Virus record (IMG/VR): IMGVR_UViG_3300025647_000234
Location: 1-26,119 of that record
Strand: one strand, 5' to 3'
DNA from: a virus
DNA length: 26,119 nt
Shown here: piece by piece, positions 2,841-16,287 of the stretch
How positions within the stretch are numbered: position 1 is the stretch's first letter
How the letters are laid out: each line of letters opens with the position of its first letter
Translations under genes and position numbers: made by a program
The notes under the pieces: generated by a model
Told to the model about the DNA's origin: nothing
The model's input: only the letters and a program-made list of their open reading frames with translations
Database searches by the model: none

Positions 2841-2860
2841 AATTAGAATATTGTACTCGT

Positions 2861-2869
2861 ATAAATATT
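2861..2869 (-). promoter_or_regulatory. Putative late promoter motif before the tape measure gene
   Basis: The coding strand reads AATATTTAT, 20 nt before the tape-measure ATG. It directly follows the T-tract of the terminator at 2871-2896, so transcription seems to end and restart here. Confidence 0.55.
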
Positions 2870-2896
2870 AAAAGGCATCATTTTTTTGATGCCTTT
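2868..2896 (-). terminator. Intrinsic terminator containing the stop codon of the upstream gene
   Basis: A perfect 10-bp inverted repeat, AAAGGCATCA and TGATGCCTTT, surrounds a six-base loop, and the coding strand continues into TTTTA. The TGA stop of the 89-residue gene lies inside the stem, so the last codons of that gene form half of the hairpin. The tape-measure promoter-like motif follows at once. Confidence 0.8.
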
Positions 2897-3147
2897 GTAA
2901 CATAAGATGGAGGTTTAATCTTACTTTTATCAGGATTACCCCAATCTAAATTAGTAGTAGTAGAAGTTTTTCCAGTTTTAGAAGTAGAATTATTATAAGC
3001 TTTTTCATCAGCTTTATTTCTAGCATCTATAGATTTATTTAAGAAATTAATTGTAGCTCTTCTTAACCAAATTGGAAAATCGTATACTTCTCCCCATGAA
3101 TAACCTCCTTGACCATTATACACTATATCGTGTATCTGTTGAAACAC
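2878..3147 (-). CDS. Small tail-assembly protein, likely the +1-frame extension of the gp26-like protein
   Basis: As an independent gene this would start at GTG (3147-3145) and give 89 residues, 7 nt after the stop of the gp26-like gene. No Shine-Dalgarno sequence precedes that GTG. The frame stays open upstream to the TAG at 3192-3190, and that extension reads FFGLTPEHRLLVFQQIHDIV, which looks like natural coding sequence rather than chance. The core, SWGEVYDFPIWLRRATINFL at 17-36, resembles short proteins encoded just after PF12322 proteins in T4-like phages, as I remember them. The Ser/Thr/Lys-rich C-terminus looks disordered. By analogy with lambda G/GT, it may be made as a fusion with the upstream protein that chaperones the tape measure. 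A separate gp51-like role is the alternative. Confidence 0.65.
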   Translation of the reverse strand: MFQQIHDIVYNGQGGYSWGEVYDFPIWLRRATINFLNKSIDARNKADEKAYNNSTSKTGKTSTTTNLDWGNPDKSKIKPPSYVTKASKK

Positions 3148-3154
3148 TAAAAGT

Positions 3155-3189
3155 CTATGCTCGGGCGTCAGGCCAAAGAAATTGAACTT
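3155..3189 (-). other. Candidate +1 programmed frameshift window
   Basis: Here the end of the gp26-like frame overlaps the open upstream part of the next frame. The only frame change that joins them is +1 (or -2). The sequence CTT TGG C at 3178-3172 allows a tRNA-Leu to slip from CUU to UUU, as at the CUU-U site of the bacterial RF2 gene. A shift there would give a fusion of about 342 residues: 244 residues, then GLTPEHR and onward. Unlike RF2, no purine-rich element lies immediately before the site; GGAGG occurs about 25 nt upstream. Confidence 0.5.
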
Positions 3190-3907
3190 CTAAAGGAATA
3201 GCGACCTCCTCTTCGCCGTTTTCTCCTTCATAAATAAAAGTCATTTTAGTATCTGGAGCAACTTCTTTGTAGTATGATCTTAAAGCTGTAGAATCACGTG
3301 CTAAAAGATAATTATCTACAAAATCACGAATAGTTTGTTTTTCAGAATCACCTTCAACAGAAGTGATCATATATTTAAGTCTTAATGAAGAATCTGCTGA
3401 GAAGTTCTTTTGAACTCGTTTCATACCTTTAATTTCATTAGTCATAGCAGTATCATCGTGACCTGTAAGAATTTTAAAAGTAATCTTAGTTCCTGAATGG
3501 GGAAGAGTAAATGGGAATTCATTTACACCTTTAGTAACTAAGGTTGTATTTAATTCTTTAGCTGGGAGGGCTGATAGATCTACAGTGATTTCTTCTTCAT
3601 TGTATGTAAATGAATAGTCTTTACCATAGCCTAAAACTCGAGCAGCTACTAATAAGGAATTTTTATCACCTGTAACTAAATCATCTAAGTTACATTTAGT
3701 AACAATTACAGATTGTAAAAGTTTATCAACAGCTATACCTTGCTTAATATAACTTTGGTTAGTTAAAATGTCTTCTTCTTTTGCGGTCATGTACTTCATT
3801 TCAACTGTACCGCTTGATAATGGGTGCCCTTCAGGGTATAACCAACCTTTTGATGGGAGTTCTACTGTTTCAGTAGGGAATTTAAATTTTGGTGTTTCGT
3901 TTTCCAT
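3155..3907 (-). CDS. T4 gp26-like baseplate/tail assembly protein (PF12322 type)
   Basis: The 250-residue product begins with the hallmark segment ETVELPSKGWLYPEGHPLSS, followed by GTVEMKYMTAKEEDILTNQ at 33-51. I recognise this pair from proteins labelled 'T4 bacteriophage base plate protein' (PF12322), which lie between tube and tape measure in T4-like phages. The rest is mixed alpha/beta with no membrane segment. The frame ends with FLWPDARA and a TAG. Its position, and the overlapping +1 frame behind it, suggest that in this phage it acts as the tail assembly chaperone, like lambda gpG, rather than as a baseplate hub subunit; that is an inference. A promoter-like motif lies 33 nt upstream. 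Confidence 0.75.
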   Translation of the reverse strand: MENETPKFKFPTETVELPSKGWLYPEGHPLSSGTVEMKYMTAKEEDILTNQSYIKQGIAVDKLLQSVIVTKCNLDDLVTGDKNSLLVAARVLGYGKDYSFTYNEEEITVDLSALPAKELNTTLVTKGVNEFPFTLPHSGTKITFKILTGHDDTAMTNEIKGMKRVQKNFSADSSLRLKYMITSVEGDSEKQTIRDFVDNYLLARDSTALRSYYKEVAPDTKMTFIYEGENGEEEVAIPLEVQFLWPDARA

Positions 3908-3940
3908 AGATTTTTAATTAGTTGCAACTGTGTATCATAT

Positions 3941-3949
3941 ATAAATACT
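3941..3949 (-). promoter_or_regulatory. Putative late promoter motif (one mismatch) before the gp26-like gene
   Basis: The coding strand reads AGTATTTAT, one base different from the common AATATTTAT, 33 nt before the ATG. On the opposite strand the same bases give TATAAATACTATA, very close to a T4 late promoter pointing into the neighbouring 101-codon gene. The motif overlaps the left inverted repeat. Confidence 0.45.
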
Positions 3950-3968
3950 ATAAAGAGAAGTCTTTGAC
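3946..3968. repeat. Left arm of an inverted repeat flanking the 101-codon gene
   Basis: The reverse complement, containing GTCAAAGACTTCTCTTTATA, matches the right arm at 4305-4327 over 22 of 24 aligned columns, with two single-base indels. This arm starts 10 bp after the stop codon of the enclosed gene. Confidence 0.75.
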
Positions 3969-3978
3969 GAATTATTTA

Positions 3979-4284
3979 TTAATATTGACGACCTTGTGTG
4001 CGATAAAGATCGAAATCTTTATACACTTTAGATTCTAGTTTATCGACTCGAGAGTCGGTATGTCGAACAACATTGTTCTCGACATTTTTAATTTCATTAT
4101 ATAAATCATTTCGGTAGCGTTCTACCTCATAATGTAGTTCTCTAACGTTAGCTTCTAGCTCTCGTTGAGTAGATTCCGCTTGTTTGCGGGTAATGTTTAA
4201 TGTCTTTAAGACCAAAAACGTACCTGCAACGATCAAAAGATCAATCACAGCAAGCACACCTATAGTAAAAGATAGTGTTTCCAT
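3979..4284 (-). CDS. Small membrane-anchored coiled-coil protein, function unknown
   Basis: The 101-residue product has one strongly hydrophobic segment at about 5-28 (LSFTIGVLAVIDLLIVAGTF and on). A highly charged Glu/Arg/Gln/Lys coiled coil follows at about 33-92. The topology suggests an inner-membrane anchor with a cytoplasmic rod, similar in shape to phage spanin or moron products, but there is no lipobox and no recognisable family. It sits between the tube and the gp26-like gene, where no T4 core gene is expected. It is separated by a terminator on its upstream side and bracketed by inverted repeats, so it looks like an inserted cassette. A weak version of the promoter motif (GTATTTACT) lies 40 nt upstream. 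Confidence 0.75.
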   Translation of the reverse strand: METLSFTIGVLAVIDLLIVAGTFLVLKTLNITRKQAESTQRELEANVRELHYEVERYRNDLYNEIKNVENNVVRHTDSRVDKLESKVYKDFDLYRTQGRQY

Positions 4285-4304
4285 AGTTTTGTTTAGTATT
4301 AAGT

Positions 4305-4327
4305 GTCAAAGAACTTCTCTTATAGTA
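4305..4327. repeat. Right arm of an inverted repeat flanking the 101-codon gene
   Basis: The plus strand reads GTCAAAGAACTTCTCTTATA and on. It mirrors 3946-3968 with one extra A and one missing T. It lies in the leader of the enclosed gene, between the weak promoter-like motif and the ATG. Confidence 0.75.
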
Positions 4328-4337
4328 AATACAATAT

Positions 4338-4365
4338 AAAAAAAGAGCTTGGCAAAGCCAAGCTC
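4338..4365 (-). terminator. Intrinsic terminator after the tail tube gene
   Basis: The coding strand carries a perfect 9-bp stem, GAGCTTGGC and GCCAAGCTC, closing a three-base TTT loop and followed by seven T. It lies 26 bp past the tube-gene stop, and is the strongest terminator in the window. It would end the sheath-tube transcript. Confidence 0.88.
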
Positions 4366-4390
4366 AAATTTAATTTTATGTAAACTTTTA

Positions 4391-4879
4391 TTAGAAGTTT
4401 AGTACACAATAATCCATACCGAGGGTTACAGTGATATTTTGGGCAGCAGTATCATTATCCCAGTTATATTCACCAAATTCAGCGGCTTTAATAAATGCAC
4501 CTTTAATAATCCATTCAGAAACGATATCACCTACAGGACCTAATACATCGATAGTAACGTCTTTCTTATAGAAATCACTATAACCATCTCTACCAGTTAC
4601 TGATTCGTGGTGTAAACGAACCCACTCCATTACGGCTTGTGCGCCTGAAGGAGTAATTGGATCAAATAAAGTCATTGTTAAATCATTCCACTTTAATTTA
4701 CCTTTAATTTTGCGGTAAACGTTAATATGGTTTAACATAATTTCTTCTTGCGAAAAACCTACAGATGAGATACCTTTAATTGTGTATGAAGGAATTCCAC
4801 CAACGTACATAATAAATCTATTCTGTACTTTTGGTTCAAACGCCGTGAAGAAAATTTCGTTAGAGTCTAATACTGCCAT
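4391..4879 (-). CDS. Tail tube protein (T4 gp19 type)
   Basis: At 162 residues it is nearly the length of T4 gp19 (163). This subunit stacks in hexameric rings to make the inner tube of a contractile tail. The N-terminus FEPKVQNRFIMYVGGIPSYT, the internal GKLKWNDLTMTLFDPITPSG and the C-terminal TVTLGMDYCVLNF follow the pattern of the gp19 family (PF06841), where a central beta strand is followed by a 'W...V/H' helix. It follows the sheath gene, as in T4, and has its own promoter-like motif 26 nt upstream. Strong independent transcription suits the many copies needed per virion. Confidence 0.9.
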   Translation of the reverse strand: MAVLDSNEIFFTAFEPKVQNRFIMYVGGIPSYTIKGISSVGFSQEEIMLNHINVYRKIKGKLKWNDLTMTLFDPITPSGAQAVMEWVRLHHESVTGRDGYSDFYKKDVTIDVLGPVGDIVSEWIIKGAFIKAAEFGEYNWDNDTAAQNITVTLGMDYCVLNF

Positions 4880-4905
4880 TTTGCGTTTATATTAATTGTT
4901 CTATT

Positions 4906-4914
4906 ATAAATATT
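4906..4914 (-). promoter_or_regulatory. Putative late promoter motif before the tail tube gene
   Basis: The coding strand reads AATATTTAT, 26 nt upstream of the tube ATG and just past the sheath stop codon. Confidence 0.55.
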
Positions 4915-4928
4915 CAAACTTTAAACTT

Positions 4929-7049
4929 TTATGCTGGGAAAGTAGCACCAGTTGGTAAGATGTTGAAGTCGAGGTAAATAAATTCAGCTGTCTTAGTTGG
5001 TTGGATGAAGATCTGGCCAATTAACTGGTTTCTATCAATTACATCAGCTGTGTTGTTAGTATCATCCATGATTACTCTGAACGCATACAAGCCTTGTTGT
5101 TGTTGAACTTGTTCTAAGTAAGGATTTACTTGAGCTAAGAATCTATTTCTAGTAGCAATTGTGTTTTGTTCAAATACTAAATTATTAGCTACTTGAGAAA
5201 TAAATGATTTAAGTTCAATTAACAATCTACGAACGTTTACACGGTCGAGAGCTGTAGCTCTAGTTTGAAGTGTTTTCTGTCCGTATACTACAACACCAGT
5301 TCCTGGGAATGTAGCAATTGGGTTAACTTTTCCTGTGTATAATGTGTCTCTGTTAGCTTGAGTTAATGTCTTTTCAGCTCTAGTTACGTTACTTAAACCA
5401 CCTCTGTTAATACCTGCTGGGGCAAACCAAGCATAAGAAACTGAATCGTTTTGAGCATATACTCCAGGAATCATTGCTGAAGCTGGAACCCAAACGTTTT
5501 CACCTGTATCTGGGTCATTGGTTTGTAACCAAGGCCAGTAAGTAGCAGCGTATGAAGTATTTCTAGTAGCAGCAGCTGTTGTAGCATTTGCAACAGTAGA
5601 TCCATAAAGGTTTTGATCTAATATTAAAATATGATCACCTCTATTTTGTGCGTTAGAAATTAATGAAGTAACTTGAGATACCATTCCAGCACTAGTTACA
5701 TTAGCTGTGTCAAATAAACCTGGGGCTGCGATCATATTGTACTGGTATGCATCTTGGTTTGCAAGAAGAGTAATCATAGCAGCATAGTCTGAACCTGTTA
5801 AGCCTTGAGAGTTAGTTACTCCACTGATAATATTATTGTAATATTTGTTTCCAGCATTAGCTTCCATATTACCAATAGCGTTTCCAAATGAGCCACTAGC
5901 TACAACTGGAAGAGAAGCTGTGTACGCTGATTTAGGAGCTCCTGAGTTATCAAAGTAATTTGGAGTGGTAGCGTTTACTGATTTTACTCTTACAAATCTA
6001 GAAGCATTAGGATATGATCCAGAGATTTCAATTTGAGAATTATCAGCACTTAAAGCTAATTTATAGTTACCAATTACTTTAGATACGAAGTTAGGTACTG
6101 TTGGGTCAAGTGATAAGTTAGTCCAAGTTTCTAATACATTAGTTTCATTAGCATTATCATCACCTCTTCTAATTACTAAATCAAAAGTACCAGATGAAGT
6201 ATTACTAGTAACAATTTGCCATCTAATGTTATCTGATGAACCGCTTGCTAAAGCACCGTTTGAGTCTAAAGAGCTAGTGCTATTCATGATAGTACCCTCA
6301 CTAAGGGTTTCAAGAACAAGAGCTACGGCACTATCACCGTTTACACCACCACCTAAAGTAGCTTGATCTGCGAAGCTTGAAGCTGATCCAGTTGAGAAAA
6401 TTACTCCGTTATAAGTAGAACCAGATGCTGAAGATGAAATTGCTAAACCTACACCTGATTCTGAAACAAAAGTAAGTGTACCACCAAGAGCAGTAGCTTG
6501 GCCCATTGAAGCTGTTAAGTTAGCAAGTGATTGACCAACAGATGAACCTGTAGAGAAGAAATAAAGTAAACCATCAGTATCATCTGCAGGAACTGGGGTC
6601 GCTGAAGCAACAAAGCGGTAGAGACCAAAACTACCAGTTACGCGAACTTCGTCTCCATCACTAAATGCAGCTGCTAAAGCAAAGCTAGCAGTAGCAAATT
6701 TACCAGCTGTTACACTTTGGTTATTTGTAATATCACTTGAAGTAGCAGGTGTATAAGTTGAACCACCTCCAGCTACTACTCTAGATACTAATAATGAAGT
6801 ACCTCCATTATTAAAATAATTGTAAGCAGCTATTGAAGTAAAGTAAGTGTATTGTTCACCACCACTAATGAAAGTTGTACCAAATCTATTTGTGTAGTCA
6901 TTGTAAGAGCTAACAAGTGTTGGGATTTCAACTGGTCCTTTTACTGTAGGGCCTATGATAGCGGCACCCGCCTGTATAGGTAAGCTACTAACTTGAGACT
7001 GGTCGTTTTCTCTAGCTAATACTCCTGGGGAGATTAATGTTTCTGCCAT
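4929..7049 (-). CDS. Tail sheath protein (T4 gp18 type)
   Basis: This 706-residue protein forms the contractile outer cylinder of the tail. The N-terminus has SPGVLARENDQS at 7-18 and GAAIIGPTVKGPVEIPTLVS at 28-47, the usual sheath opening. The C-terminal core has LDRVNVRRLLIELKSFI near 602-618 and ends with YLDFNILPTG, as in phage sheath families (PF04984 type). The middle, about 100-400, is a Ser/Thr/Gly-rich variable region that would form the exposed outer domains. T4 gp18 has 659 residues, so the length fits. It is followed by the tube gene and preceded by a small coiled-coil gene, with its own promoter-like motif 23 nt upstream. Confidence 0.92.
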   Translation of the reverse strand: MAETLISPGVLARENDQSQVSSLPIQAGAAIIGPTVKGPVEIPTLVSSYNDYTNRFGTTFISGGEQYTYFTSIAAYNYFNNGGTSLLVSRVVAGGGSTYTPATSSDITNNQSVTAGKFATASFALAAAFSDGDEVRVTGSFGLYRFVASATPVPADDTDGLLYFFSTGSSVGQSLANLTASMGQATALGGTLTFVSESGVGLAISSSASGSTYNGVIFSTGSASSFADQATLGGGVNGDSAVALVLETLSEGTIMNSTSSLDSNGALASGSSDNIRWQIVTSNTSSGTFDLVIRRGDDNANETNVLETWTNLSLDPTVPNFVSKVIGNYKLALSADNSQIEISGSYPNASRFVRVKSVNATTPNYFDNSGAPKSAYTASLPVVASGSFGNAIGNMEANAGNKYYNNIISGVTNSQGLTGSDYAAMITLLANQDAYQYNMIAAPGLFDTANVTSAGMVSQVTSLISNAQNRGDHILILDQNLYGSTVANATTAAATRNTSYAATYWPWLQTNDPDTGENVWVPASAMIPGVYAQNDSVSYAWFAPAGINRGGLSNVTRAEKTLTQANRDTLYTGKVNPIATFPGTGVVVYGQKTLQTRATALDRVNVRRLLIELKSFISQVANNLVFEQNTIATRNRFLAQVNPYLEQVQQQQGLYAFRVIMDDTNNTADVIDRNQLIGQIFIQPTKTAEFIYLDFNILPTGATFPA

Positions 7050-7358: not shown

Positions 7359-8558
7359 TTAATAAATATTAAGGGTTTTTTGTAAAGCACTTATTACCAT
7401 ATTAGGAGTAATATTTTTTGTGCATTCGAATTGACGTAAAGTTCCTTTATGGTCAGGACACCATTCCCAATCTCCAGGATTTAACCATTCACGGTTAAAA
7501 CATCCAGTACATACATTAGATCTTTTAGGAAATACTCTTTCACAAGTAAATTCTGTATGTGGTTCGCTAAATCCTGAGATTAGTATAACTGGGGTTCCAG
7601 TAGCCCAAGCTAACCAACTTAAACCACTACCAACACCAATAAATGCATCAGCATGTTTAATTTGATTTATTCTTTCTTCTAATGAAAAATCTCCAGTTTT
7701 ATTTATAATTCCTTTTAAAGTTCCTCCTAATTTAGAATCATGCCATTTATCTCCCCAAGGTTCTTGAGTAATCATTACTACTTTGTAGCCTTGTTTATTT
7801 AGATAATCAATAACAGTTTGCCATCCTCTAGGATAATTCCAATACTTAGCATGAGCCGAAGCGTGGGGGGCTATTACTACATACTTTTCTTTTAATGGAG
7901 AAGGTTCTTGTGGGAGTTTTATTTTGGGTTTTATTTCAGTATACTCTAATCCTAGAATATCAGTTGAAGTTTGTTGTAAATTTAAAGCTTTAAAATCACG
8001 GGGTACCTTACTATAATTAACAACCGCATCACTTTCATAATGCCAACCTACACCATACATAGCATACAAATCAAATACTTCAACTCCAGGAGTTATAAAT
8101 TCTAGTTCTGGGTATTCATCGATAAACCAATCATTATGGAATGTAGAAGTTATAACATGGCAATTCCATTTTTTTCTAAATTCATCAACATAGGGAAACC
8201 AAGCTAATGTATCACCAATAGCACTTGAATCCATATGGATGTAAACTCTTTTACCTTCAGGATTATACTTATGTTCAAAAACTAATTCATTATTTGAGGC
8301 ATCATATACTTGAACTAACCAATTAATAAAATATTTAATGTTAGTACGAGTCCACATGTTAGTACTAATAGTAGTATCGTGTAATATAGTTTGGGTGTCT
8401 TGGTCAGTAAATACAACTTTATATTGTTTTTCTTCAGGACCAGTAACTTCTATAAAAGCCCCATCTACAAAATTACAAGAAAATTTATTTTGTAACTTTT
8501 TAAATGGAATTTTTAAAATTTTAGTACTATTATATTCGTCAATTAAAACTTCTTTCAT
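7359..8558 (-). CDS. BAHT-like O-glycosyltransferase (autotransporter heptosyltransferase / GT9-related)
   Basis: The 399-residue product looks like the autotransporter 'strand-loop-strand' O-heptosyltransferases (TibC/Aah type). Residues 28-100 form the N-terminal beta-rich domain (NFVDGAFIEVTG, then YFINWLVQVYD). KRVYIHMDSSAIGDTLAWFP at 103-122 is the GT-B entry with the family's SAIGDTLAW signature. VVIAPHASAHAKYWNYPRGW at 227-246 and IGVGSGLSWLAWATGTPVIL at 307-326 form the donor-binding half. Cysteines C350, C353, C367 and C379 give the CxxC...C...C pattern expected for the structural metal site described in TibC. Known members attach heptose to serines of repetitive adhesins. Here the likely targets are the Ser/Thr-rich fibres encoded just upstream. 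The start overlaps the previous stop by ATGA. The sugar donor cannot be read from sequence; a capsule or LPS target is the alternative. Confidence 0.75.
   Translation of the reverse strand: MKEVLIDEYNSTKILKIPFKKLQNKFSCNFVDGAFIEVTGPEEKQYKVVFTDQDTQTILHDTTISTNMWTRTNIKYFINWLVQVYDASNNELVFEHKYNPEGKRVYIHMDSSAIGDTLAWFPYVDEFRKKWNCHVITSTFHNDWFIDEYPELEFITPGVEVFDLYAMYGVGWHYESDAVVNYSKVPRDFKALNLQQTSTDILGLEYTEIKPKIKLPQEPSPLKEKYVVIAPHASAHAKYWNYPRGWQTVIDYLNKQGYKVVMITQEPWGDKWHDSKLGGTLKGIINKTGDFSLEERINQIKHADAFIGVGSGLSWLAWATGTPVILISGFSEPHTEFTCERVFPKRSNVCTGCFNREWLNPGDWEWCPDHKGTLRQFECTKNITPNMVISALQKTLNIY
7362..7370 (-). promoter_or_regulatory. Putative late promoter motif inside the end of the heptosyltransferase-like gene
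   Basis: The coding strand reads AATATTTAT, 14 nt before the 82-codon gene. The bases also encode the last residues (NIY) of the upstream glycosyltransferase. It is the shortest motif-to-start spacing of the set. Confidence 0.45.
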
Positions 8559-9505
8559 ACAAACTCATTATATATTTTTACTAATTCAGTAGTACGATTA
8601 TACCAATCTAATTCTTTAGCAGTATTTGCACATTTTTCTCTATAAGAATCAAAATTTAATAATATATCTTTTAATCCTTGATCCATTTTAAATACATCTC
8701 GAGGAGCTCTCCAAGCACCATGAAAATCAGTTTCATGCTCCCAATCAGCAATAATAGGTAAACCAGCAGCTGCGGCTTCAATCATAGTTAAATTAGGATG
8801 ACCTGCTTCTAACATTGTTGGATGGATAAAAATATCATGTTTATGATATAAATCTAATAATTCAGTGTTAGGTAAATCAAAAATAATACTTAATTTAGGA
8901 TAATTTAAAGCCCAAATGTGATTATTAAAAAAATTTTGATTATTGTATGGGCCCGCTATTGTAATTTCTAAATCATTTAGCATAGCTAATCCTATACCAT
9001 AAGCAAAACCTTTTCTATCAAATCCAGCTTGACCTCCTAAACCATTATTAGCAACCATTAAAAGTTTAGGTTCAGTTGGTATTTCTTTTTCAATAGGGTA
9101 AAATTCTTGATTATTAACCCCGTGAGCAAAGTATCTTACTTTAGGATGATTATCAAACCAATCTACTAAAAATTTAGCAGGTACTAATGATACTAAAGAT
9201 CCTTCAATAGCTTTTAAATTTTCTTTATATACATTTGAGTCTTTGCCATAATGAAATACGTGGTGATCATGTAATTGAAATATGTAAGGAATATTTCGTT
9301 CAGCTAACATTAAAGCTAAATTAGCAACATGGCAATGAACTATATCATATTGATAAGGTTCAACCCAAGTAGCAAATTTAACATCAGCTACATGTTCTTG
9401 TTTTTCAAGATTACACTTAAATTCCCAAATAATTTTTTCTATAGCACCCCAACCTTTAGGAGGAATAGTTAATCCGCAAGCGGGGTCGATATGGGCTACT
9501 CTCAT
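8555..9505 (-). CDS. Glycosyltransferase family 4-like protein
   Basis: The 316-residue product is a compact GT-B enzyme. The N-terminal half has MRVAHIDPACGLTIPPKGWG, the Gly-rich acceptor-side loop of GT4 enzymes. YDIVHCHVANLALMLAERNI at 53-72 and the LHDHH at 78-82 follow. The C-terminal half has AGFDRKGFAYGIGLA at about 160-174 (the RKG position) and EAGHPNLTMIEAAAAGLPII at 233-252, the nucleotide-sugar binding E...E motif with two extra residues between the glutamates. At 316 residues it is shorter than most GT4 enzymes (350-400). It is joined to the genes on both sides by ATGA overlaps, so translation is coupled. No signal peptide is present, so it acts in the cytoplasm. Donor and acceptor are unknown. 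Confidence 0.8.
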   Translation of the reverse strand: MRVAHIDPACGLTIPPKGWGAIEKIIWEFKCNLEKQEHVADVKFATWVEPYQYDIVHCHVANLALMLAERNIPYIFQLHDHHVFHYGKDSNVYKENLKAIEGSLVSLVPAKFLVDWFDNHPKVRYFAHGVNNQEFYPIEKEIPTEPKLLMVANNGLGGQAGFDRKGFAYGIGLAMLNDLEITIAGPYNNQNFFNNHIWALNYPKLSIIFDLPNTELLDLYHKHDIFIHPTMLEAGHPNLTMIEAAAAGLPIIADWEHETDFHGAWRAPRDVFKMDQGLKDILLNFDSYREKCANTAKELDWYNRTTELVKIYNEFV

Positions 9506-12204
9506 TCTTTAGCAAATATTAATGGACTATTTTCGTCTGTTGATTTATCGGTTTGTTCAATAATACTAAATCCTGGGAGGTGTTTAGTATAGATTTTTTC
9601 TGCTGTTCCTACTTTTAATTCAGCTACATTACATACCCACATATCAAAAGCATCCCATGGTGTTGTACTAATTTTATCTTGAATATAAGATAGTTTATCA
9701 TTATTAATTAAATATGATTGGGCTGGAATAAATGGTGTAACGTTTGTATAAACATCTTCAATTTTAGGTCCATTTAAATTACGGTTTTGCCATGGATTTC
9801 CAAATCCAATAATATCTTGGTTAGTTTCTTTTGATAATCTACTAAAACGAATTAATGAATCATATAACTCTTGATAGTCTGAGTCAACAATTACATCTCC
9901 TTCAAATATTAAAATATAATCATAGTTATAATTATCTTCATCATTTATAGCTGTAGTATGGGCAATATAACAACCATAGTGGCCAGGAGCAAGTTTATAG
10001 TAACCAGGTTTATCTTGAACGTCATCTGGGCGATTACAAGTATCTTTAGGAGGTAATTCAGTCCATATTTTATTTATACGTTGTTCATATTTAATACCTG
10101 TTTTTTCACAAAAATCTTTAATATTGTTTACTGAGCGTATTTCTTTTGGATTGGTTTCCGGCTCAGTAACTAAGTGCATTAATTTGATTTTTTTAGAGGT
10201 TACTAAATTTTTAATTTTTATAAACCCATTTTGAGGTAAGATATCATTATAGTAATTATAATCAATGTTTATTTGTTTACTTTCTATAAATTTATTAGTA
10301 TTTAAATCAAAAATTTCTAATTTAATTTCATACAAATCATTTTTATTAAATGATTCACAATTTATGGGTAAATAATAAAAAGTTTTGTCTATAATTTCTA
10401 AATCTTGGGTATTAACTAAATTTGAATTTTTAAATACTGAGAGTTTGAAAAGTCTACTATCTTTACTATTTAATACTTGGATATAAGGACAAAATATCTC
10501 TGGGTGTTCTTCTACTGGGAGTGCTGTAAAATATTCTACTCTTGAAAAATCTTTATGAGTAATATCTCTATTTAACTTTTCTCTAAAAATTTCAGTATTT
10601 TCATAATGAACTTTGGGGAGATTTTTAACTCCATTATACATTAAGTTTTCTAAACTATTAGTCTCTGATCCCCATTTATGCTGTAAATCATCATACTGTT
10701 TAGAATCTGTTATTAAAGGGAAATTTTTAGTATAAAATTCAGGTTTAGCTGCAGCAAAGAATGTAGTTAAACATGGGCCTTCTTGTTCTTGTCTAAATTC
10801 ATAAAAAGCATCTTGTGTATCTAAAATAGATGAAATTTCATCTAAATATGTTTTATGATTTAAAATATAGTCAAAATTTAAAAAGAATACTTTTTTAATA
10901 CCTAACTTTTTTGCTAAAATACATCCATTGTAGTAATTAGTATAAACTGTAGGACCATGATATATGTCATTATTTTCACCATTTAAATTAACGTATACAT
11001 CAAAATCTGGGGAGTAATAGAATGATTTGTTAAAGAATGTATGTTTAGTTAAAATATTATTTTTATCGTAAATACAATAATCTACTAATGATTGTAATTC
11101 TTCTGGGATAGGAGCATGGGATACAAGGATAATTTTTCTTCCAGTTTGTTTAGCTTTTACAATACATTCTTTAGTTGTATTAACAATGCTATCAGTAATA
11201 GGATAAGTAGAAATAATAATAGCCTCATTTTCAGGATTATAAATTTGAACTCCTAGTTTTCCAGCTATTAACTCACAATTTTTTTCAAAATTATCAAATT
11301 CTAAATAATTTACTCCTTCAAAATTATCCCAATAATTTAAGTATACTGGGAGGTTATATATTAAAATTGGGATTTGATATGAAACTGCTTCACGAATTAC
11401 TAGTGGCATTGTTTCTTTATCATTATTTGTTCCGCGAGAAGTAAACAAAAACAAATCCATTGCTTGATAGAATTTATCTACATCAGTGCGTTCGTTCCAC
11501 CAAGTTAAGTTTGAAGGTTGATTATTAGCTAAATCTTCCCAGTACCATTTAAAATTATCAGCTCTATTACCTAAACTATGGAATTCAACATCAGGAAATT
11601 GTTGAGCATATTCAAAAAATTCTTTTTGATTTTTTCTAGGAGTGTATAACCCAACGTGTAAAACATGTTTTTTGTTTGGATCTAATCCTAATTCTTTTAA
11701 TGCTTCTTCTCTATTAGGACGTTCAACGTATTCAATTGGGTAGTATACTACAGTTTTAGGAATGTCTATATCTTTATATTGTTGAATTTGCCACTCAGAT
11801 ACAAACATAAATTTGTCTGGGAAGAATGATTTTTCTTGGGTATTATAAGATGAATCATGGGATGTTTCTACAATTCTATATTTACGTTTAGTAGAGTATA
11901 TTTGTTCTGCTACAGATCTGTCCATAAAAAATTCAGGAATTTCTTCTAAATGAACAATATCAGGTTGAACTTGATTGATTATATCAATAAGTTCCATTTT
12001 ATTATCTCCTAAAGTAAAAAATCTACTAGAATCTATTAAATCTACAATTTTATTTCTTGTAACTACTAAAACTCCCCCAGTACAATCTACCCATTCAACT
12101 AAATAAATTTCATATGTATCTTTTAATAGCTCAATTTTTTTACATAGATATTGAGGAAGGCCCCCAGTAGATAAATGGGGAGCTATATACAATAATTTCT
12201 TCAT
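9502..12204 (-). CDS. Multidomain glycosyltransferase: GT4-like, central GT-like, GT25-like C-terminus
   Basis: The 900-residue product has at least three parts. Residues 1-320 are a GT4-like GT-B domain: MKKLLYIAPHLSTGGLPQYL at the start, HVGLYTPRKNQKEFFEYA at 183-200 and ETMPLVIREAVSYQIPIL at 264-281, with the E-x7-E motif. Residues 328-530 open with IIISTYPITDSI and IILVSHAPIPEELQSLVDYC, a segment I recall from phage and bacterial glycosyltransferases, and look like a separate catalytic domain. Residues 565-660 are beta-rich. Residues 675-900 resemble GT25: LAPGHYGCYIAHTTAI at 738-753 and YILIFEGDVIVDSD at 763-776, where EGD stands for the usual EDD. GT25 includes LPS and collagen galactosyltransferases. 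The gene starts 34 nt after the 50-codon gene, without its own promoter-like motif, and overlaps the next gene. Confidence 0.78.
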   Translation of the reverse strand: MKKLLYIAPHLSTGGLPQYLCKKIELLKDTYEIYLVEWVDCTGGVLVVTRNKIVDLIDSSRFFTLGDNKMELIDIINQVQPDIVHLEEIPEFFMDRSVAEQIYSTKRKYRIVETSHDSSYNTQEKSFFPDKFMFVSEWQIQQYKDIDIPKTVVYYPIEYVERPNREEALKELGLDPNKKHVLHVGLYTPRKNQKEFFEYAQQFPDVEFHSLGNRADNFKWYWEDLANNQPSNLTWWNERTDVDKFYQAMDLFLFTSRGTNNDKETMPLVIREAVSYQIPILIYNLPVYLNYWDNFEGVNYLEFDNFEKNCELIAGKLGVQIYNPENEAIIISTYPITDSIVNTTKECIVKAKQTGRKIILVSHAPIPEELQSLVDYCIYDKNNILTKHTFFNKSFYYSPDFDVYVNLNGENNDIYHGPTVYTNYYNGCILAKKLGIKKVFFLNFDYILNHKTYLDEISSILDTQDAFYEFRQEQEGPCLTTFFAAAKPEFYTKNFPLITDSKQYDDLQHKWGSETNSLENLMYNGVKNLPKVHYENTEIFREKLNRDITHKDFSRVEYFTALPVEEHPEIFCPYIQVLNSKDSRLFKLSVFKNSNLVNTQDLEIIDKTFYYLPINCESFNKNDLYEIKLEIFDLNTNKFIESKQINIDYNYYNDILPQNGFIKIKNLVTSKKIKLMHLVTEPETNPKEIRSVNNIKDFCEKTGIKYEQRINKIWTELPPKDTCNRPDDVQDKPGYYKLAPGHYGCYIAHTTAINDEDNYNYDYILIFEGDVIVDSDYQELYDSLIRFSRLSKETNQDIIGFGNPWQNRNLNGPKIEDVYTNVTPFIPAQSYLINNDKLSYIQDKISTTPWDAFDMWVCNVAELKVGTAEKIYTKHLPGFSIIEQTDKSTDENSPLIFAKE

Positions 12205-12238
12205 AGACTTGTTTTAGTTTATAACTAATTTAATAACT

Positions 12239-12391
12239 TTATTTTGATTTGCCAAGTTGTTTTAATCCTTCTTCTTTAGATAAAAGTGTTCCCTTAGATA
12301 ATATTTGTTGAAATTCTTCTAAAGTAACATAATGAATATTACCTCCACTAGCTTTTATTTTATTTTCTAATTCAGGGGTTAAAGGTATCAT
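12239..12391 (-). CDS. 50-residue protein translationally coupled to the shorter fibre, function unknown
   Basis: The ATG at 12391-12389 overlaps the TGA of the 1274-codon fibre gene (ATGA), and the TAA is at 12241-12239. The product begins MIPLTPELENKIKASGGNIH, continues YVTLEEFQQILSKGTLLSKE and ends in a Lys-rich tail. It looks like a small helical cytoplasmic protein. Tight coupling to a fibre gene suggests a fibre assembly chaperone or a partner of the following glycosyltransferase; this is an inference from position only. Support for it being real comes from the ATGA junction, the natural-looking composition and the fact that it fills the gap between the fibre and the glycosyltransferases. 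Confidence 0.65.
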   Translation of the reverse strand: MIPLTPELENKIKASGGNIHYVTLEEFQQILSKGTLLSKEEGLKQLGKSK

Positions 12392-15300
12392 GCTGTATAC
12401 ATTGGAATTACATAGTCTGTTGCTCCTACTCTAACGGCTAACCAGCTATCTGGGGTACCTAATACATTATCATCAGCTGTTGCTCCAATAATATCACTAA
12501 CTCCATTTCTACCACCAGGAGTATAAGCACTACCATAAGATCCACTATGAATTAACTTTAAACCTGTATAAAATTGGTTACCTACTTCTAAATAGTTTGT
12601 ACTATTAACATATAAAGCATTACGAGAAGTTCCTCCTGTATCTTGGAATCTTAAAGAAGCTGCGGGTACGTTAGATCCTGTAATAGATATTGAACCTGAA
12701 ACTGTTACATGGTGAAGTGGGGCTGCTGTGTAATTAACTGCTAAGAAAGTGCTACCAGTTAATACAACATTACCATTAGTAGTATCATAATAAAAATTAG
12801 AATAAACCGTAGGATCTCCAGATTTACCATAAGTTGTAATACCACCTACAGTAGAACCTGCCCAGTTTACGTTTACAGTTCTATCAGTACTTAATGATCC
12901 TCCTCCATTTAAACCCGTACCTGCTACTATAGATACGTAAGTACCTGCTGTACCTATATTACCTGAAATACCAGATACACCTGAAGTGCCAGAACTACCT
13001 GATGATCCAGCTTTACCTGCTGTACCTGAACTACCTGAAGAACCACTAGGGCCAGAATTACCAGCGTTACCACTAGATCCATTTGAACCTGTAGTTCCTG
13101 AATTGCCTGATTTACCTGAGTTACCATTGTTACCGCTTGAACCATTAGAGCCTGTAGTACCTGAGTTGCCTGAGTTACCTGAGTTACCATTGTTACCGCT
13201 TGAACCATTAGAGCCTGTAGTACCTGAGTTGCCTGAGTTACCTGAGTTACCGGCATTACCATTTGAGCCGTTTGAACCTGTTGTGCCTGAATTACCAGAT
13301 TTTCCTGAGTTACCTGTAGCACCTGCTGAGCCAGAAGAACCTGTAGTACCTGAAACAGCTGAAAGGCCACTTACACCTGATGTTCCTGATGAACCTGAAG
13401 TTCCTGATGAACCTGATGATCCAGACTTGCCTGAGTTGCCGGAATTACCAGAATTACCATTTGAGCCGTTTGAACCAGTAGTACCTGAATTACCTGAGTT
13501 ACCTGAGTTGCCACTTGAGCCATTGGAACCTGTTGTACCTGAGTTACCTGAGTTACCTGAGTTACCGCTTGAACCATTTGAACCAGTAGTACCTGAATTA
13601 CCTGAGTTACCTGAGTTACCGGAATTACCACTTGAACCATTAGAACCTGTTGTACCAGATTGACCTGATTTTCCTGAGTTACCTGTAGCACCTGCTGAGC
13701 CAGAAGAACCTGTAGTACCTGAAACCGCTGAAAGACCACTTACACCTGAAGTACCACTTGATCCACTTGTACCAGATGAACCTGATGATCCAGACTTACC
13801 TGAGTTACCTGAGTTACCACTAGATCCATTTGAGCCAGTAGTACCTGAATTGCCTGAGTTGCCTGAGTTGCCACTAGATCCATTTGAGCCAGTAGTACCT
13901 GATAATCCTCCTACGCCTGAAGTACCTGATGAACCTGAACTACCTGAAGAACCTGAGCTCTGGCTTAAACCTGATGTACCTGTATTACCTGATGAACCTG
14001 AACTACCTGAAGAACCTGAGCTCTGGCTTAAACCTGATGTACCTGTATTACCTGCTGAACCTGAAGAACCAGATGTTCCTGATGAACGGCTTAAACCTGC
14101 TTTACCTGAGTTACCAGAGGAGCCAGTAGAACCTGCTGAACCAGACGAACCTGATGAGCCAGAAGTACCAGATAAACCACCTACACCAGAAGTACCTGAT
14201 GAGCCCGAAGAACCAGATGAACCTGCTGAACGACTTAAACCGGAGTTACCTGTATTACCTGATGAACCTGAACTACCTGAAGAACCTGAGCTCTGGCTTA
14301 AACCTGATGTACCTGTATTACCTGATGAACCCGAAGAACCTGATGAGCCTGAAGAGCGACTTATACCAGAAGTACCAGTATTACCTGATGAACCAGATGA
14401 TCCTGAAGAACCTGAAGAGCCTGAAGTGCTTGATAGTCCACCAACACCTGAAGTACCTGAAGAACCTGAACTACCTGATGAACCTGAAGAACCTGCTTTA
14501 CCTGAGTTACCAGCATTGCCACTAGATCCATTTGAACCAGTTGTACCCGAATTACCAGACTCACCTGAATTACCACTTGAACCATTTGAGCCTGTAGTAC
14601 CTGATAATCCTCCTACGCCTGAAGTACCTGAAGAACCTGAAGAACCAGATGTTCCTGATGAACGGCTTAAACCTGAGTTACCTGAGTTACCAGAAGAACC
14701 AGTAGAACCTGCTGAACCAGACGAACCTGATAAGCCAGAAGTACCAGATAAACCACCTACACCAGAAGTACCTGATGAGCCCGAAGAACCAGATGAACCT
14801 GCTGAACGACTTAAACCTGAGTTACCTGAGTTACCTGATGAGCCTGTTGAACCTGCTGAGCCTGATGAGCCTGAGGTACCTGATAGCCCACCTACACCAG
14901 AAGTACCTGATGAGCCTGAGGAGCCTGAACTACCTGCTGAACGGCTTAAACCTGAGTTACCTGAGTTACCAGAAGAACCAGTAGAACCTGCTGAACCAGA
15001 CGAACCTGATGAGCCAGAAGTACCAGATAAACCACCTACACCAGAAGTACCTGATGATCCACTTGAACCTGATGAACCAGAAGAGCGGCTTAAACCTGAG
15101 TTACCTGAGTTACCTGATGAGCCTGTTGAACCTGCTGAGCCTGATGAGCCTGAAGTACTTGATAAACCATTTACACCAGAAGTACCTGATGATCCACTTG
15201 AACCTGATGAACCAGAAGAGCGGCTTAAACCTGATGTACCTGTATTACCTGAAGAACCTGCTGAACCAGATGAGCCTGAGGAGCCTGAAGTGCTTGATAG

Positions 15301-16212
15301 CCCACCTACACCTGAAGTACCTGAAGAACCACTTGAACCTGATGAACCAGAAGAGCGACTTAAACCTGATGTACCTGTATTACCTGAAGAACCTGAGGAA
15401 CCTGAAGAACCAGATGAGCCTGAGGTACTAGATAATCCTCCTACACCTGAAGTACCTGAAGAACCACTTGAACCTGATGAACCAGAAGAGCGACTTAAAC
15501 CTGATGTACCTGTATTACCTGAAGAACCTGAGGAACCTGAAGAACCAGATGAGCCTGAAGTGCTTGATAAGCCACCTACACCAGAAGTACCTGATGAGCC
15601 TGAGGAGCCTGAACTACCTGATGAACGACTTAAACCGGAGTTACCTGAGTTACCAGAAGAACCAGTAGAACCGGCTGAGCCTGAAGAGCCAGATGAGCCT
15701 GAAGTGCCTGATAAGCCACCTACACCAGAAGTACCTGATGAACCCGAAGAACCAGATGAGCCTGCAGAGCGGCTTAAACCGGAGTTACCTGAGTTGCCTG
15801 ATGAACCTGTTGAGCCTGAAGAACCCGATGAACCTGTTGAACCCGATGAACCAGAAGAACCTGAAGAGCCACTTGATGCTCCTGAACTACCTGAAGTACC
15901 TGTTATACCAGAACTACCTGTTTTACCTGTAGAGCCAGATGAACCTGAAGTACCTGATGATCTACCAGATGAGCCTGAGGTGCCTGCACTACCTGATGTG
16001 GAACCTCCTGAGCTACCACTACTGCTTCCACCTCCACCACCACTTACTCCTCCTATAACGTATCTAACTTGCTTTGAATTAGGATTAATTACTAAAGCAT
16101 AGTCTTCAACAGAACCAGTGGGAACTGATAGTAAAAATAGGTCATTTATAACCTTATTATCTTGACCTGAGTCTTGTTTTTTCTGGACAGTATATCTTTT
16201 ATTTTCACCCAT
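12388..16212 (-). CDS. Collagen-like Gly-X-Y repeat fibre protein with a C-terminal head
   Basis: The 1274-residue product has three regions. Residues 1-53 are non-repetitive (MGENKRYTVQKKQDSGQDNK and on) and may attach the fibre to the virion. Residues 54-1086 are Gly-X-Y triplets built from Ser, Thr, Asn and Ala with almost no Pro, organised in 45- or 48-residue superrepeats marked by GLSR and GVGGLS. Residues 1087-1274 begin GTAGTYVSIVAGTGLNGGGS and end WLAVRVGATDYVIPMYTA, a closing pattern common in phage fibre tips. No S74 chaperone domain is present, unlike the larger fibre. It is preceded by a terminator and a promoter-like motif at 27 nt, and is followed by a coupled small gene and three glycosyltransferases. 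The likely role is a host-contacting or decorating fibre; the location on the virion is unknown. Confidence 0.85.
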   Translation of the reverse strand: MGENKRYTVQKKQDSGQDNKVINDLFLLSVPTGSVEDYALVINPNSKQVRYVIGGVSGGGGGSSSGSSGGSTSGSAGTSGSSGRSSGTSGSSGSTGKTGSSGITGTSGSSGASSGSSGSSGSSGSTGSSGSSGSTGSSGNSGNSGLSRSAGSSGSSGSSGTSGVGGLSGTSGSSGSSGSAGSTGSSGNSGNSGLSRSSGSSGSSGSSGTSGVGGLSSTSGSSGSSGSSGSSGNTGTSGLSRSSGSSGSSGSSGTSGVGGLSSTSGSSGSSGSSGSSGNTGTSGLSRSSGSSGSSGSSGTSGVGGLSSTSGSSGSSGSAGSSGNTGTSGLSRSSGSSGSSGSSGTSGVNGLSSTSGSSGSAGSTGSSGNSGNSGLSRSSGSSGSSGSSGTSGVGGLSGTSGSSGSSGSAGSTGSSGNSGNSGLSRSAGSSGSSGSSGTSGVGGLSGTSGSSGSAGSTGSSGNSGNSGLSRSAGSSGSSGSSGTSGVGGLSGTSGLSGSSGSAGSTGSSGNSGNSGLSRSSGTSGSSGSSGTSGVGGLSGTTGSNGSSGNSGESGNSGTTGSNGSSGNAGNSGKAGSSGSSGSSGSSGTSGVGGLSSTSGSSGSSGSSGSSGNTGTSGISRSSGSSGSSGSSGNTGTSGLSQSSGSSGSSGSSGNTGNSGLSRSAGSSGSSGSSGTSGVGGLSGTSGSSGSSGSAGSTGSSGNSGKAGLSRSSGTSGSSGSAGNTGTSGLSQSSGSSGSSGSSGNTGTSGLSQSSGSSGSSGSSGTSGVGGLSGTTGSNGSSGNSGNSGNSGTTGSNGSSGNSGNSGKSGSSGSSGTSGSSGTSGVSGLSAVSGTTGSSGSAGATGNSGKSGQSGTTGSNGSSGNSGNSGNSGNSGTTGSNGSSGNSGNSGNSGTTGSNGSSGNSGNSGNSGTTGSNGSNGNSGNSGNSGKSGSSGSSGTSGSSGTSGVSGLSAVSGTTGSSGSAGATGNSGKSGNSGTTGSNGSNGNAGNSGNSGNSGTTGSNGSSGNNGNSGNSGNSGTTGSNGSSGNNGNSGKSGNSGTTGSNGSSGNAGNSGPSGSSGSSGTAGKAGSSGSSGTSGVSGISGNIGTAGTYVSIVAGTGLNGGGSLSTDRTVNVNWAGSTVGGITTYGKSGDPTVYSNFYYDTTNGNVVLTGSTFLAVNYTAAPLHHVTVSGSISITGSNVPAASLRFQDTGGTSRNALYVNSTNYLEVGNQFYTGLKLIHSGSYGSAYTPGGRNGVSDIIGATADDNVLGTPDSWLAVRVGATDYVIPMYTA
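12955..16052 (-). repeat. Gly-X-Y coding repeats of the shorter fibre
   Basis: The basic unit is 9 bp (one triplet), in which a Gly codon is followed by two codons mostly for Ser, Thr or Asn. Larger units are visible. The GGTTTA marker (G-L of GLSR) recurs at 14668, 14812, 14947, 15091, 15226, 15361, 15496, 15631 and 15775, giving steps of 135 or 144 bp only. Two copies of a 63-bp unit lie in tandem at 13121-13246 with no mismatch that I found. Asn-rich triplets dominate toward the C-terminal side (low coordinates), Ser-rich ones toward the N-terminal side. Confidence 0.9.
13121..13246. repeat. 63-bp tandem duplication inside the fibre repeats
   Basis: The segment starting at 13121 (TTACCATTGTTACCGCTTGA on the plus strand) is repeated identically from 13184. 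It encodes 21 residues, seven Gly-X-Y triplets. Lack of divergence suggests a recent duplication or gene conversion. Confidence 0.8.
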
Positions 16213-16239: not shown

Positions 16240-16248
16240 ATAAATATT
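16240..16248 (-). promoter_or_regulatory. Putative late promoter motif before the shorter fibre and glycosyltransferase unit
   Basis: The coding strand reads AATATTTAT, 27 nt before the fibre ATG and just after the terminator at 16266-16287. The next such motif is at 7362, so one transcript may carry the fibre, the 50-codon gene and all three glycosyltransferases. Confidence 0.55.
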
Positions 16249-16265: not shown

Positions 16266-16287
16266 AAAAAGGGGCATACACCCCTTT
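16266..16287 (-). terminator. Intrinsic terminator after the giant fibre gene
   Basis: A 7-bp stem, AAAGGGG and CCCCTTT, closes a six-base loop. On the coding strand it is followed by further T, giving a run of five T in all. It lies 24 bp past the fibre stop codon and separates the two fibre genes. Confidence 0.82.

Follow-up and report, generated by a model that had tools for sequence, protein, structure and literature searches.

Serine hyperglycosylation of repetitive proteins in the cytoplasm is carried out by the TibC/Aah enzymes of the BAHT family (TIGR04414; PMC4358343), of which TibC needs the residues D110, K230, R286 and W305 and four iron-finger cysteines. Glycosylation of a virus's own proline-poor collagen-like proteins is described for Mimivirus, where the L230 hydroxylase/glucosyltransferase modifies hydroxylated lysine (PMC9614988). 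Furthermore, glycans are carried by the capsid and tail-tube subunits of mycobacteriophages, according to work cited in PMC12619734. Collagen-like phage tail fibres with Gly-X-Y arrays are likewise known (PMC3368898; PHROGs tail-fibre families). Here, we analysed the IMG/VR virus record IMGVR_UViG_3300025647_000234 of an aquatic phage, a DNA stretch of 26,119 bases that is probably a fragment and is called the window below. In it, a gene for a collagen-like fibre, a 50-codon gene and genes for three glycosyltransferases form a unit, which is very probably a late-expressed cassette that O-glycosylates serines of collagen-like fibres, as judged from the sequence and its relatives.

A first-pass annotation of the window had proposed that these five genes form one co-directional unit in a contractile-tail phage. 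Both statements were confirmed, the former nearly to the base: three of the four junctions are 4-nucleotide ATGA overlaps and a gap of 34 nucleotides separates the 50-codon gene from the gene for a 900-amino acid (aa) protein (Table 1). All identified genes of the window are on the minus strand, and matches to sheath, tube and baseplate hub reveal a contractile-tail module. The assignment of the enzymes to the glycosyltransferase families GT9 (TibC-type), GT4, and GT4 with a weak GT25 match also holds.

The 399-aa enzyme matches TIGR04414 with 326.5 bits (cut-off 200) over positions 9-373 of 374 and aligns to the TibC crystal structure 4rb4 with an E-value of 1e-58. The TibC alignment starts at residue 29, and the N-terminal beta-barrel domain (PF21129, TibC_1st) scores 18.9 bits at a cut-off of 27. 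D116, K238, R296 and W315 correspond to the four required TibC residues, which comprise the catalytic base and residues binding sugar or ADP, and are invariant in 53/53 distinct phage copies, which also keep C350, C353, C367 and C379, aligned with the TibC cysteines C339, C342, C358 and C370. T226 of TibC is conservatively changed to S234, a serine throughout the 53 phage homologues, while the position of Pro300, which is tied to donor stereoselectivity in TibC, is occupied by glycine. Members of GT4, GT9 and GT25 are common in lipopolysaccharide (LPS) synthesis according to the family descriptions, and glycosyltransferases encoded in the host-recognition region of pelagimyophages have been suggested to act on the host surface (PMC7029224). 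The three enzymes could remodel LPS or exopolysaccharide of the host in order to block superinfection or aid release, and lie next to a fibre gene merely out of a habit of tail modules. We consider this unlikely, since any LPS heptosyltransferase model reaches at most 46 bits on the 399-aa protein, compared to 326 bits for TIGR04414.

Both fibres are dominated by collagen repeats (PF01391, cut-off 27.2 bits), with 352.8 bits and an E-value of 7e-108 for fibre A and 837.9 bits and 2.5e-259 for fibre B, which also contains PF13884 (E-value 1.8e-17). Position Y is occupied by serine more often than by any other residue (76% in fibre A, 59% in fibre B), and position X mainly by Ser, Thr or Asn. 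Lysines are few in the repeats and proline is nearly absent, with 9 residues among the 1274 of fibre A and 3 among the 2847 of fibre B. In a relative whose TibC-type enzyme is 100% identical to that of the window (L004, fibre at 2077-6171), fibre A comprises 1364 instead of 1274 aa, which reflects either variation in repeat length or an effect of assembly.

All links between enzyme and fibres were drawn from genomic data. Among 34 relatives with at least 8 kb of upstream sequence, 27 have a collagen-type gene upstream of the enzyme, which is Ser-type in 26 and Pro-type in one (L550). In five of the seven relatives without such an upstream gene, and also in L550, a Ser/Thr-type stretch is located at another place of the contig; in L063 and L539 no Ser/Thr-type collagen stretch was found upstream or elsewhere in the contig. 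In the reverse direction, Ser-type viral contigs were picked solely by a match to (GGNWSNWSN)x8 and controls by a Gly-Pro pattern, and the following figures apply among the matches listed. A TibC-type gene was present in 25/50 Ser-type contigs compared to 0/50 Gly-Pro contigs. As a verified Gly-X-Y frame was lacking in 11 of the 50 Gly-Pro contigs, we also counted verified frames, with the enzyme in 22/40 Ser-type versus 0/39 Pro-type contigs (p = 8e-9). For records of at least 60 kb, the figures were 14/19 and 0/12. Of 20 contigs with both genes, 14 have a collagen gene within ~10 kb of the enzyme. The survey of related genomes that the first-pass annotation had proposed as a check therefore agrees with its suggestion that the enzymes decorate the fibres of the virion, which is supported by this controlled co-occurrence together with the clade test and the unrelated bacterial partners described below. 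The preference for Ser-type over Pro-type collagens also speaks against a role at the host surface.

Phages with a related sheath offer a second comparison, as the enzyme is present in only 2/30 of their records. The collagens of the enzyme-free members are mostly of the GAT, GPT, GSQ or GVS type, with a median serine fraction at position Y of 0.01 versus 0.66 in enzyme-bearing relatives. L138, which is nested among these enzyme-free phages, contains both the enzyme and a GTS collagen. In Flavobacterium phage immuto, neither the enzyme nor a Ser-type collagen was found. Serine at Y would be the preferred acceptor, as no other position differs as much between relatives with and without the enzyme. 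The same comparison bears on whether glycans are instead added to another protein of the virion (sheath, capsid or baseplate) or to several proteins. The mycobacteriophage glycans mentioned above and the close neighbourhood of the sheath gene in the lineage of the window would fit such a target, which nevertheless appears very unlikely: sheath-related phages usually do without the enzyme, in other lineages it adjoins collagen genes without this sheath, and the bacterial loci have no sheath at all.

The closest bacterial homologues of the enzyme occur in Methylobacter, Methylomicrobium, other Methylococcaceae and several gammaproteobacterial assemblies. They adjoin small proteins that contain stretches of (Gly-Thr-Ser)n or (Gly-Ser-Ser)n, with a distance of 13-176 nucleotides in eight cases, including cases on ordinary chromosomes, and the N termini of these proteins are signal-peptide-like or lipobox-like as judged by eye. 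Examples are found in L437 (8920-9783), L442 (8936-9907), L450 (8542-8922 and 11285-11911) and L460 (11237-11644), and the small proteins apparently represent an undescribed family of putative glycoproteins. A prophage origin was rejected for the locus of Methylobacter luteus, which is chromosomal with mfd-, csiV- and glycolate-oxidase-like neighbours. An enzyme tree was inferred from 94 sequences, namely 33 classical bacterial sequences, 41 phage sequences and 20 bacterial rows grouping with the phages, a few of which are probably phage contigs in assemblies (e.g. L435 and L436). The branch separating the collagen-associated clade from the classical autotransporter enzymes is fully supported, and a Ser/Thr-type Gly-X-Y gene is adjacent or nearby in 17/20 bacterial members of the former but in none of the 33 classical rows (17/20 versus 0/32 others, p = 5e-11). 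Pairing with Gly-X-Ser proteins on bacterial chromosomes is a further point against remodelling of the host surface.

The association could also be a matter of lineage history, in that one group of aquatic phages shares both traits without a functional link. Both traits are indeed nearly fixed in the sheath clade of the window, which leaves few independent pairs. We nonetheless regard this explanation as highly improbable, as the two traits also occur together in a Microcystis phage (Mel-JY01), in a 735-kb phage, in diverse contigs with other gene orders or fusions and on a methanotroph chromosome beside the mfd-, csiV- and glycolate-oxidase-like genes. Beyond the single cassette, we lean towards the existence of a distinct collagen-directed TibC-type subfamily, common to phages and bacteria, that would O-glycosylate serines in Gly-X-Ser repeats. 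It would constitute a prokaryotic system unrelated to the hydroxylysine pathway of animals, in which sugars on serine replace proline or hydroxyproline in giving very long fibres rigidity, protection or solubility.

Expression signals fit a role in the virion. Seven copies of the octamer ATATTTAT are located on the coding strand, each 22-41 nucleotides before a start codon, compared to none on the other strand. These copies (first bases on the minus strand 24881, 16247, 7369, 7080, 4913, 2868 and 202) precede the genes for fibre B, fibre A, an 82-aa protein, the sheath, the tube and an 876-aa protein at the position of the tape measure, as well as the last gene, and a one-base variant, GTATTTATA, lies upstream of the hub gene. 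In 15 relatives, ATATTTAT or TATTTATA is found before the sheath, tube, hub and tape measure genes and also upstream of the gene for either the fibre or the first glycosyltransferase. The promoter-like motif noticed earlier before the fibre gene is thus real. Between it and the copy at 7362-7369, at the end of the last glycosyltransferase gene, the window contains, as the first-pass annotation had stated, no further ATATTTAT and no terminator; the only terminator-like hairpin nearby on the minus strand is located ahead of the unit and closes the gene of the 2847-aa fibre. Read on the coding strand, ATATTTAT(A) equals the reverse complement of TATAAATA, the late-promoter sequence of T4. A search for Bacteroidetes-type promoters (TTTG...TANNTTTG) gave zero matches, and matches to sigma-70 promoters (50 versus 43 expected) were not above chance. 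The phage's own motif would account for the promoters. Because it is common to the unit and the structural genes, and because the hairpin closes the preceding fibre gene, the glycosyltransferases are probably produced together with the structural proteins of the virion. Such a placement behind a putative late promoter would suit modification of the virion better than modification of DNA or of the host surface.

The other two glycosyltransferases probably belong to the same process. The 316-aa protein matches PF00534 above the cut-off (E-value 6e-7), and its gene as well as that of the 900-aa enzyme is present in 34/34 distinct relatives with at least 8 kb of upstream sequence. An AlphaFold2 model of the 900-aa protein (pLDDT 85.7) shows four parts, comprising a GT4 part (~1-317), a GT-A-like part (325-550), a beta-rich part (555-650) and a GT25-like GT-A part (670-880). 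In Foldseek comparisons, the GT4 part came out close to PimB' and BshA, and the best neighbours of the tandem GT-A part were human LH3 and COLGALT1 (E-value ~4e-10, ~9% identity). With TM-scores of ~0.2, structural identity with these two proteins was not accepted despite the good E-values, and the resemblance is taken as a hint only. PF01755 (GT25) scores 21.1 bits on the protein and 24.2 bits on the DNA frame (cut-off 24), and its part is missing in 10/30 homologues. An acidic E-x-D motif of the metal-binding kind is invariant in 20/20 proteins that have the domain. The analogy to collagen galactosyltransferases drawn in the earlier annotation consequently stands as a weak resemblance and falls as main evidence, and GT25 as the core collagen enzyme was rejected, as the domain is optional. 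Many phages encode the GT4 domain of the 900-aa protein in fusion with a TibC-type domain, and homologues of this protein are found in most enzyme-bearing Ser-type contigs compared to one weak match among 18 enzyme-free contigs. Fusion and co-occurrence therefore suggest that both enzymes act in one pathway. Single phage proteins of 1213-1527 aa (L422, 6210-10574; L424, 7074-11657; L416, 8405-12046) combine GT4, TibC-type and FkbM methyltransferase domains, two of them also a DXD-sugar-binding or GT25 domain, and may represent a glycan assembly line in one chain.

Several observations weigh against a fibre-glycosylation cassette. Among the matches listed, 18/40 verified Ser-type contigs are without a detected enzyme; these are fragments or of unknown completeness, and perhaps the contigs are incomplete or the enzyme is supplied by the host. 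A close sheath relative (L146 6347-9682 and L521 2569-11118) encodes Gly-Leu-Ser/Gly-Ile-Ser collagens with serine at 82-97% of Y positions, and no TibC-type gene was detected in its 68-kb contig (L146), which is either an exception or an incomplete record. The complete 636-kb megaphage LR756504 has an enzyme of the TibC-type family and no collagen gene. Moreover, the co-occurrence is partly clade-wise, with two to three independent pairs on the sheath tree. Genes for ADP-heptose synthesis are nearly absent as well (1/40 phage records). A phage-made ADP-heptose donor is hence without support and, given in addition the change of Pro300 to glycine, the transferred sugar may or may not be heptose. 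A separate observation concerns the 735-kb huge phage LR756501 (L084, about 103,500-105,700 and 587,600), which encodes a TibC-type fusion gene and a very large Ser/Thr-type Gly-X-Y array with 1130 pattern matches on one strand.

For the cassette, we infer a reaction in which, during assembly of the virion in the host cytoplasm, the TibC-type enzyme would take a sugar from a nucleotide-sugar of the host and attach it to the side chains of serines in newly made Gly-X-Ser repeats. Fibre A would be an acceptor and fibre B very probably another, most likely through their position-Y serines, and the GT4 and GT-A/GT25-like enzymes might then extend or modify the first sugar. The resulting coat could stabilise the proline-poor fibres. 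Galactosylated threonine reportedly raises the thermal stability of Riftia collagen, according to the summary in PMC10141479; by this analogy, and since the arrays are without proline, a stabilising role of the sugars is plausible. Alternatively, the coat may form a mucin-like, non-helical glycan bristle. The consequences that the first-pass annotation proposed for receptor binding, protease resistance or surface retention are a matter of speculation. The 50-codon gene is conserved in close relatives only, and its product is perhaps a chaperone or adaptor of the fibre.

Table 1 Features of the fibre/glycosyltransferase unit and its surroundings in the window.
Feature	Position	Strand	Details
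Collagen-like fibre B, 2847 aa	16311..24854	minus	PF01391, C-terminal PF13884 Peptidase_S74 chaperone domain; likely also an acceptor
Terminator-like hairpin between the two fibre genes	16268..16287	minus	AAAGGGG-TGTA-TGCCCCTTT, then TTCTATT
Late-promoter motif ATATTTAT of the unit	16240..16247	minus	
Collagen-like fibre A, 1274 aa, proposed acceptor	12388..16212	minus	Gly-X-Ser array at residues ~74-1092
50-codon gene, 50 aa	12239..12391	minus	ATGA overlap with fibre A
Multidomain glycosyltransferase, 900 aa	9502..12204	minus	Pfam, AlphaFold2, Foldseek
GT4-type glycosyltransferase, 316 aa	8555..9505	minus	PF00534
TibC/Aah-type predicted protein O-glycosyltransferase (GT9 superfamily), 399 aa	7359..8558	minus	TIGR04414
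Next copy of the late-promoter motif, before the 82-aa gene; delimits the unit at its end	7362..7369	minus	

Literature joining TibC-type enzymes with collagen-like proteins of phages or bacteria was not found in a full-text search, for which subscription journals were mostly outside coverage. The pairing of enzyme and fibre suggests that collagen-like proteins of microbes are glycosylated in a manner not described before, and such proteins are a predicted new substrate class for the TibC-type family. As tail fibres decide the host range of phages, their glycosylation, if true, would alter the way in which these fibres are modelled and studied. It would also assign a likely substrate to phage glycosyltransferases that are usually annotated as DNA- or LPS-modifying, offer a simple sequence rule (serine at position Y of Gly-X-Y) and make the stability of proline-free bacterial and phage collagens directly testable.

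Compared to the known systems, the enzyme of the window shares with the TibC/Aah enzymes the sequence family, the catalytic Asp, Lys, Arg and Trp, the four-Cys iron finger and, as predicted, cytoplasmic hyperglycosylation of serines in a repetitive protein. It differs in its partner, a Gly-X-Ser collagen-like fibre instead of an autotransporter beta-helix, in the exchange of Pro300 and in the separate clade of the phage enzymes, which are often fused to GT4 or FkbM. Its neighbours are Gly-X-Ser fibres, with no autotransporter or strand-loop-strand partner, and it lies outside the classical clade. As in Mimivirus, a viral enzyme would glycosylate the virus's own proline-poor collagen-like proteins; here, the likely target is serine instead of hydroxylated lysine and the key enzyme is of the GT9/TibC type and not the GLT25-like domain of L230, and no lysyl hydroxylase domain was found in Pfam scans of the window proteins. 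COLGALT1 and LH3 are the top structural neighbours of the tandem GT-A part, yet no whole fold is superposable, GT25 is optional and the phage repeats contain few lysines. Mycobacteriophages, as cited in PMC12619734, resemble the predicted system in that phage glycosyltransferases decorate virion proteins, but with glycans on the C termini of capsid and tail-tube subunits instead of collagen-like fibres. Finally, the fibres share their Gly-X-Y arrays with known collagen-like phage fibres, for which a linked glycosylation was not found described in the literature searched, and differ from them in being almost free of proline and dominated by serine at position Y.

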